Assembly (NCBI GenBank): GCA_030549335.1 | Contig: CM060183.1 | Coordinates: 33,788,768 to 33,852,767, forward strand | DNA: 64,000 bases | Direction of reading: 5' to 3' | DNA from: Pontederia crassipes | Taxonomy: Eukaryota > Streptophyta > Magnoliopsida > Commelinales > Pontederiaceae | Shown: positions 14,480-37,740 of the stretch, in pieces | Numbering within the stretch: the stretch's first letter is position 1 | Layout: the number at the start of each line of letters is the position of its first letter | Notes under the pieces: generated by a model | The model's input: the letters and a program-made list of their open reading frames with translations, nothing else | What the model was told of the DNA's origin: nothing | The model's database searches: none | Program-made: the position numbers and the translations under genes

Positions 14480-21406
<6,927 letters not shown>

Positions 21407-35235: not shown

Positions 35236-37390
35236 TTAATATTTATATATCAAGAACGAGCCCAGAAGGAAATGTATATGCTCGAGATGGATATTGGACG
35301 CCGATTTGGAGTGGGCCGTCAACGGCGTTTGGTTCTTTGTACTCGGCCCATAAATTTGAAAGAATATCAAGTAAATATATCATATATTACTATATATATA
35401 TAATATTTATTACTTGTATTTCGATAAGTTCGTTTAAAATAATAAAATGTTTTCAAATTTTATTTTCAGATTAATTTTTAATTAATTATCTGTAAGTAAT
35501 TAGTAATTGGTGGGTACGCATACAGAAAAATATAATTGGAGAGTTGATTTAATGTGTAAATCGTTTTTTTAATCTACACATGCATTTTACTCAAACGCAT
35601 CATTAATTATTTTTTAAAGATACAAATTAATACATAATTCTCAAATTATATAATTCAATAATAATCTAATTATGCGTTAAGTCAAAGGATTTGACATGGT
35701 CATTAAATTAGACTCCCTACAGTAAGTCATACGTTCATGTATATTTTCATTTACTTCTGTAAAAATAAAGAGAAATTTGAAGTTGGGAAAAAAACTGAAA
35801 TGCAAGAAAGTATCATGTTCGGATTCTCAAAGTTTACTGGAGTTGAAGAGAAAAAGGAAATTAAAATATTGATTTATTGCCAAAGAACATAAGATAACAT
35901 TTTCTAGGCATGGGCGGACTTACATGATCTTCTATGGGGTCAATTGACCCCATAAATTATAGCAATATTTATTATTATCTAGGGGGTTGTTTATTTTCTA
36001 TATTGCTCTTTAAAAAACATTTCTAAAAATTGCTATAAGAGAAGTATTGGATCATAAAATTATTGTACATTAACATATTCTTCTAAGCCTATTTTATTTT
36101 ATTTATTTCCATTAGACTCATTAACTTATATTTTTAGAAATTCATCATTATTTTTTAGGAAGAAATTCAATGCTATTAATTTATTAATGCTAACTTCAAG
36201 AGTTCATAATCTATGAACCCTTACAACATCCTTTAATTTATTAGACAATTAAATTAAAATAATAAATTATAGACACATGAAATAAAATTCTTTAATTGAT
36301 ACCATATTTTATTTTAGATGATGTGATTATTGAATACAAATAAATAATTCATCGATTAAAATTTTTTTATAGATCATAATCATTATATTTTAAAATATTA
36401 TTTTTTGAATATTTTATATATTATATTATTGTTAAAAGTAAGTAGTTATAATTTGCACTCACATGCAGCAGAGTCCTAGGTCCGCTCTTGTTTCTAGGCT
36501 AGAGTTTATTTATTACGAGAGGAAAATATGATGTCAAATTGAAGAGTACTCGTTAATGTAGTTGCTAGCCTTTTTCTGCAAATGGCGATAGAGAATGGAG
36601 ATAGATGAGCTTAATTAATGAGAATTAGAAAATATAATTACCACCAATCGAAACTAATTAATGTGATGGTTCCTCCTTAGGAAATGTTGCAAAAGGTGAA
36701 GTTGGAGGAACGCTGCGTGCAAGTTACGGTGACAATTTGAATTAGGATTTGACTCGACCTGACTCGACTCGGTCGATTTTGATTAGGTCGGATCGGATCA
36801 GTTTTTTTTAGGGTGAATCCGATTCAATCCACCCGATTCGGGTCGGGTTATTCGATCACCATTTTTTTAAATTTTTTTCTTACTTTTTTTATTATCTAAT
36901 ATAAAAATATGATATAATATTTATTTTAAAATCATAAAATAATCTATTAAACATTTATATTATTTTATATATTTAAATATTTTATTTAATTTTCTAGTAC
37001 AAAATATTGGCTGAAAACTAAAAAATAAATAAAAAAGTCAGGTCTTCGAATCGGGTCAACTCAGGTCGAAAAATTCTGACCCGTACCCGACCCGACCCAA
37101 GGTCGGGTTGAGGTCGGGTCAGGTATGACTTGACCACAGACTCGACCTGATCCAAACTGGCAGGTCGACCTGACCCGCAGAACACCTCTAATTTGAACTC
37201 GGCATAAAATATATAAGACTAATCGATTTGCAAAGTGTATGATGCACTATAAATAACTAAACTAAATATAATCATACCTCAAGTGTCAAAGTAATCGGGG
37301 CCTTAATTAATTGTATATCGAACTTTTGATATTAGTTGTCATGCCCATGTATGCACGTAGGTAGGTTGATCGAGCTAGCTAGAGAGAACT
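35236..37390. other. Intergenic DNA with a GGGTCGG-rich inverted segment, no supported gene
   Basis: Mostly AT-rich DNA. Between about 36735 and 37190 are two oppositely oriented clusters of GACTCGACCTGA / GGGTCGGGT-type motifs around an AT-rich centre, which suggests the termini of an unclassified DNA element. No protein gene is supported. Confidence 0.4.
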
Positions 37391-37530
37391 GTGAAGGCGA
37401 GTGGCAGGGCAATTCTCCTTTGGCAAGAACAGCAGAGATCAGTATTTTGCCAGCATATATACATGCCTTGACGGTTGCCATTTCCGACCAGCATTCGTGC
37501 CAAAGGAGGACTGCCTGTCATTCTTATACC
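37391..37530 (-). ncRNA. MIR399: MIR399 microRNA precursor
   Basis: On the minus strand, 37425-37405 is a 21-nt sequence starting TGCCAAAGGAG and ending TTGCCCTG. From memory this is identical to a canonical plant miR399 mature form. It lies on the 3' arm. The 5' arm (about 37517-37497) reads GGCAGTCCTCCTTTGGCACG and pairs with it: an 11-bp perfect core (CTCCTTTGGCA with TGCCAAAGGAG), more pairs on both sides, and a loop of about 60-70 nt. miR399 is known to be induced by phosphate starvation and to silence PHO2, a ubiquitin-conjugating enzyme that limits phosphate transport. A TATA box and two P1BS sites lie upstream on the same strand (separate entries). Precursor ends are estimates. The opposite strand can form a similar hairpin, but its arm differs from canonical miR399. 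Confidence 0.88.
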
Positions 37531-37574
37531 TCACACTCGGCACTGCCTCCGGCTGTTTCCTTCACTAAACTAGC

Positions 37575-37576
<2 letters not shown>

Positions 37577-37612
<36 letters not shown>
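37577..37612. repeat. (CT)n(CA)n compound microsatellite
   Basis: About 8 CT and 10 CA units. On the minus strand this falls between the predicted TATA box and the MIR399 hairpin, hence probably in the 5' leader of the primary transcript. Confidence 0.9.
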
Positions 37613-37613
<1 letters not shown>

Positions 37614-37675
37614 TCACTCTCATGTGATCACTCACTTCGGCGATGCCCATTACAGATTGCACAATGATTTGGTTT

Positions 37676-37683
37676 TTTTTATA
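37676..37683 (-). promoter_or_regulatory. Putative MIR399 TATA box
   Basis: TATAAAAA on the minus strand, about 150 bp upstream of the hairpin and 38 bp downstream of the P1BS pair. This spacing suits a phosphate-responsive promoter. Confidence 0.6.
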
Positions 37684-37720: not shown

Positions 37721-37740
37721 GGATATGCTGCAGGATATGC
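37721..37740 (-). promoter_or_regulatory. Two tandem P1BS sites (PHR1 binding) upstream of MIR399
   Basis: GGATATGC occurs at 37721-37728 and again at 37733-37740; both fit the P1BS consensus GNATATNC. PHR1-type MYB factors bind this element and activate MIR399 genes under phosphate starvation. Twelve-base spacing (about one helical turn) and position upstream of a TATA box support function. Confidence 0.7.

Follow-up and report, generated by a model that had tools for sequence, protein, structure and literature searches.

Control of miR399 by PHR1, which binds the P1BS element GNATATNC, has been described (PMC2936532), and the 5' leader of PHO2 is reported as the miR399 target (PMC7941915). 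Two printed mature sequences are of direct relevance here: tae-miR399b, which lies on the 3' arm of precursors from wheat chromosome 1AL (PMC3398953), and rice miR399b (PMC9138629). The window analyzed in this study, a stretch of 64,000 nucleotides from Pontederia crassipes (C1:33788768-33852767; assembly of 1.13 Gb in 43 contigs), contains a 21-mer identical to both. It reads TGCCAAAGGAGAATTGCCCTG at positions 37405-37425 of the minus strand. The initial annotation had proposed an MIR399 gene on this strand, with a canonical miR399 on the 3' arm of a hairpin, a partially complementary 5' arm, a loop of about 60-70 nt and no open reading frame. Each of these points was borne out by the analysis. 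The features of the hairpin are as follows:

37395 to 37527, minus strand: MIR399 precursor hairpin (RF00445, 51.0 bits; fold of 37391-37530, z -3.27)
37405 to 37425, minus strand: mature miR399 TGCCAAAGGAGAATTGCCCTG, on the 3' arm, with the same letters as tae-miR399b and rice miR399b
37496 to 37515, minus strand: inferred miR399 star, on the 5' arm (minimum-energy fold, assuming 2-base 3' overhangs)

Folding of the 140 bases from 37391 to 37530 (minus strand) gave a stable hairpin of -49.6 kcal/mol with the 21-mer on its 3' arm, and none of 200 shuffled sequences was equally stable. A wider fold of 271 bases retained the hairpin but was less exceptional (z -2.28, with 4 of 200 shuffles equally stable). 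In the 140-base fold, 17 of the mature positions 1-19 are paired. The unpaired bases are mature positions 12 and 17 plus one base on the star side, and 70 bases (37426-37495) separate the inferred star from the mature sequence. Plant miRNA duplexes contain up to 5 mismatches, few of them in bulges; when this rule was applied, the window duplex, with its two mature positions and one star-side base unpaired, stayed within it. No open frame of at least 150 codons overlaps the hairpin, and the longest ATG-to-stop frame within 37300-37660 (minus strand) has 49 codons.

The window was also compared with the Rfam model of the family, RF00445. The hairpin matched all 117 positions of the model (1-117), at 37395-37527 on the minus strand. 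This score of 51.0 bits lies below the gathering cut-off of 57 bits, which is a search threshold and not a biological definition, and the default Rfam scan of the window therefore missed the locus. Compared with the model, the match is full-length, but the window hairpin has a longer loop and its 5' arm is short of one base at each of two places. In a genome-wide search the locus reached an E-value of 2.7e-8. This search returned 25 matches at 13 places, namely 11 canonical loci and two weak variant-type loci (33.1 and 27.1 bits). The gathering score was passed by 9 of the 11 canonical loci; the window locus scored lowest, and its paralog on contig C6 (56.3 bits) also failed. With E-values up to 10 allowed, the model matched in 6 of 14 control genomes, in none of them above the cut-off. 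All 11 canonical loci matched the model on the reverse strand as well, with lower scores.

Two other explanations were discarded. The 19-base core of the miR399 family occurs once in the window at up to 2 mismatches, and none of 100 shuffled windows contained any match. A chance match was rejected on the uniqueness of this core against shuffles, the z-score of the fold and the genome-wide Rfam E-value. The reading of the locus as a miRNA target site, and not as a gene, was rejected too: apart from the opposite strand of the miRNA itself, no complementary site within 4 mismatches was found in the window, and the only site with 5 mismatches was the 5' arm of the hairpin itself.

Upstream of the hairpin and on the same (minus) strand, a putative promoter was recognized from sequence only, with two P1BS boxes and a TATA-like box:

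37733 to 37740, minus strand: distal P1BS (PHR binding box) GCATATCC, kept in the C5 and C6 paralogs
37721 to 37728, minus strand: proximal P1BS GCATATCC, 12 bp from the distal copy; no other two P1BS boxes in the window lie within 20 bp of each other
37677 to 37683, minus strand: TATA-like box TATAAAA, 57 bp downstream of the distal P1BS when measured from start to start

The presence of such boxes means little by itself. Over the whole window P1BS was not enriched (14 found against 19 expected), and two copies of GCATATCC appeared in 47 of 100 shuffled windows. Thus, the evidence for the predicted promoter is the close pair and its conservation, not the mere presence of boxes. The paralogs on C5 and C6 carry the same pair at the same spacing of 12 bp; the distance from the first box to TATAAAA is 54 bp there, versus 57 bp in the window. 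A P1BS pair with TATATAA was found at C13c and C14c. Altogether, 5 of the 11 canonical loci, the window locus included, combine two P1BS boxes at a distance of 12 bp with a TATA-like box downstream. The promoter block can be aligned across C1, C5 and C6, together with the stretch after the TATA box. In the range from -350 to -100, P1BS is present at 9 of the 11 canonical loci and was not found at C13b and C14b. This range, which was chosen once the positions of the boxes were known, amounts to 2750 bp and contains 14 boxes. The rest of the same loci, two of which (C13b and C13c) overlap, amounts to 29549 bp with 13 boxes. The density count leaves aside four variant loci with CGCCAAAGGAGAGTTGCCC, which have upstream P1BS boxes too. 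A scan for bacterial-type promoters and terminators was uninformative for plant DNA.

The place of the locus within the genome was assessed from its paralogs. The exact core pattern gave 23 matches genome-wide and none when read backwards. These correspond to 11 MIR399 loci, 10 sites at two PHO2-like loci (C5 and C6) and 2 sites at a third (C1). The closest relatives among the matches listed were C6:23013177-23013289 and C5:47365563-47365674, both 71% identical. The MIR399 copies at C5:47365567-47365671 (minus strand) and C6:23013180-23013285 (plus strand) have exactly the mature sequence and inferred star of the window copy, so that small-RNA reads alone cannot assign the copy of origin.

The arms of each of these two copies are identical to the window copy at 79 of 82 positions (41/42 in the 5' arm and 38/40 in the 3' arm, in C5 without gaps). 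The loops differ in length, with 59 bases in the window versus 31 and 32 in C5 and C6. For C5 the loop alignment spans 59 columns with 28 gaps and 23 matches, that is 23/31 ungapped; for C6 the loop is identical at 25/32. Between the window and C5, the promoter block is identical in 97/111 ungapped columns, the 300 bases downstream in 171/264 and the region upstream of the promoter in 239/325. Against the 79/82 of the arms, identity over ungapped columns is 65-74% in the loop and the flanks, values for which the aligner was free to place gaps. Ungapped loop columns are no more diverged than the flanks. Thus, arms and promoter stand out in conservation, and the loop differs mainly by its length. 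The C5 and C6 copies are a 90-94% identical pair, in contrast to the 71% of the best listed match of the window copy. Of the 11 canonical loci, 10 form five look-alike pairs, and among the matches listed the window locus has no partner in the assembly. In an alignment of the 11 canonical precursors, none of 16 consensus pairs was changed on both sides, a result that supports neither way.

Open frames around the three copies indicate that the similarity extends beyond the hairpin. The anchors in the window are:

20942 to 21406, plus strand: Ras/Rab-type GTPase open frame (Pfam Ras), with relatives of 84% and 83% near MIR399 on C5 and C6
26789 to 27430, minus strand: WRKY open frame (Pfam WRKY), with relatives of 78% near MIR399 on C5 and C6
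54944 to 55990, minus strand: leucine-rich-repeat (LRR) open frame (Pfam LRR), with relatives of 83% and 87% (part of the query) near MIR399 on C5 and C6

Along C1, a Rab-type GTPase (+) is followed by WRKY (-), MIR399 (-), cellulose synthase (+) and LRR (-). On C5 the order is Rab (+, 47349773), WRKY (-, 47355223), MIR399 (-, 47365567) and LRR (-, 47405638), and C6 displays the mirror image, with LRR (+, 22958875), MIR399 (+, 23013180), WRKY (+, 23024336) and Rab (-, 23030781). The order Rab-WRKY-MIR399-LRR is common to the three, and the window MIR399 copy belongs to a duplicated block that is also present on C5 and C6. C13 and C14 also have Rab relatives (76%), at a distance of about 42 kb from their MIR399 clusters. 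The cellulose synthase exon is the exception in this order: among the matches listed, no relative exceeded 76% and none was near MIR399 on C5 or C6.

Three longer pieces around MIR399 are 90-94% alike between C5 and C6, and 68-74% alike between each of these and C1. Judged from these identities, the C1 split is older than the C5/C6 split. We take the duplication that separated C1 from C5/C6 to be the ancient grass genome duplication (rho), and we assume that the C5/C6 block, not the window block, is the counterpart of wheat 1AL. A maize study reports that miRNA genes survive genome duplication at a higher rate than expected (PMC2773440), so retention of MIR399 after a duplication is known behavior.

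At least 18 other matches to the cellulose synthase exon of the window were found. They form nine pairs of similar copies, each shared between two contigs such as C1 and C2, C3 and C4, or C5 and C6. This pairing suggests that the genome is tetraploid. Among the matches listed, C2 carries no homeolog-like copy of Rab, WRKY, MIR399, cellulose synthase or LRR, which may reflect loss of the segment or an assembly gap. C1 and C2 do pair at other cellulose synthase genes.

The initial annotation had also linked the locus to PHO2, and a scan for targets of the window 21-mer led to PHO2-like genes in the same genome. With up to 4 mismatches to full complementarity allowed, C5:45361000-45370500 has seven sites, C6:25164000-25168500 seven and C1:31105000-31114500 three. 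None of 1000 shuffled 21-mers reached these site counts at any of the three loci. The C5 gene, from which the domain evidence comes, encodes two UBE2O-type SH3 domains and a piece of UQ_con, which we take to be the domains expected of PHO2/UBC24. Thus, the genome that contains this MIR399 locus also has a PHO2-type E2 gene with complementary sites in its leader.

The copy on the contig of the window (C1:31109379-31117157) is different. In its first large exon, the similarity to the C5 gene is broken into pieces that lie in different frames. UQ_con matches are still obtained from the later exons, which resemble UBE2O-type E3-independent E2 enzymes of solved structure. The copy could be what is left of a PHO2-like gene, or a gene that has been reshaped. 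MIR399 and the PHO2-like locus are 2.7 Mb apart on C1 (window copy), 2.0 Mb on C5 and 2.2 Mb on C6, and these similar distances fit a block duplication. One could imagine that the duplicated block keeps an intact MIR399 together with a PHO2-like relic which, if transcribed, would be a natural decoy for the miRNA of the same chromosome; this idea is quite improbable. Among the papers listed, titles and the openings of abstracts described neither MIR399-PHO2 linkage nor a PHO2 relic, which is a weak negative.

A search with a target-mimic pattern that we take to be IPS1-like gave five matches, and none with the reversed pattern. The match at C4:3693298 is exact and the other four have one mismatch: C13:57862505 and C14:65788070, which are identical, C1:14902997 and C2:13095911. 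By their sequence, they are candidate miR399 decoy transcripts.

The mature sequence, its duplex, the full-length model match, the conserved arms, the P1BS/TATA promoter, the gene order shared with C5 and C6 and the seven complementary sites at PHO2-like loci all argue for a MIR399 gene on the minus strand, as first proposed, and the locus is most likely functional (probability about 0.92). It looks like an ordinary but genuine new gene of the known miR399 family. A decaying copy, whose hairpin and promoter boxes survive while the gene is silent or poorly processed, could account for the lowest model score among the 11 canonical loci and for a fold that is weaker than in each of the four paralogs analyzed (z -4.77, -5.66, -6.84 and -6.35, from 4 of the 10 canonical paralogs). 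The loop, nearly twice as long as in C5 and C6, and the disrupted frames of the PHO2-like copy on the same contig point the same way. Against decay stand a mature sequence and an inferred star identical to those of C5 and C6, arms unchanged at all but three positions in each comparison and promoter boxes at almost equal spacing, and we regard a decaying copy as improbable.

The strand of the gene also had to be considered, since the plus strand folds better than the minus strand (z -4.31 versus -3.27) and matches RF00445 at 44.2 bits. The gene would then be an antisense miRNA hairpin with a 3' arm reading TGCCAAAGGAGGACTGCC. The exact miR399 is nevertheless on the minus strand, and the P1BS pair and TATA-like box are placed upstream for that strand, whereas the nearest P1BS upstream for the plus strand is at 35274-35281. 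Moreover, the reverse-strand matches at the other 10 canonical loci, which are also lower scoring, indicate that a second-strand match is expected of such a stem. A plus-strand gene is very improbable, and was rejected on the side of the promoter and on the mature sequence.

For the minus-strand MIR399 gene, the steps that follow are those known for the family. Under phosphate shortage, PHR factors would bind the two P1BS boxes, the transcript would start near the TATA box, at around position 37650, and a Dicer-like enzyme would cut the hairpin. miR399 would then guide cleavage of the 5' leader of the PHO2-type E2 mRNA, and phosphate transporters would persist. With this locus, the phosphate-starvation circuit of the plant gains a well-supported gene, from a class that is missed by protein-based annotation and by the default Rfam scan. 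The conservation of the promoter between block duplicates provides a handle on PHR control.

Two further groups of elements were noticed. The variant CGCCAAAGGAGAGTTGCCC occurs at four loci (C5:17700274, C6:55769944, C9:69955134 and C10:7456610), each with P1BS boxes and TATAAAA upstream, and two of the four are the weak Rfam MIR399 matches. These loci probably form a divergent MIR399 subgroup.

Elsewhere in the window, a twister type-P1 ribozyme match was detected at 17644-17703 (plus strand), with 67.3 bits for a cut-off of 67.2. The match marks the 5' end of a short, SINE-like element (about 17650-17835) with terminal TTG repeats. Copies of the 16-base sequence TATATTTTAAAATATA flank this element at 17634-17649 and 17836-17851, and the ribozyme match overlaps the first of them by 6 bases. 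An inverted copy of the element is present at about 18764-18917. Genome-wide, the twister-P1 model gave at least 62 matches besides that of the window, at least 12 of them above the cut-off, and none in 14 control genomes. On this basis, the ribozyme-like fold seems to be part of a dispersed repeat.
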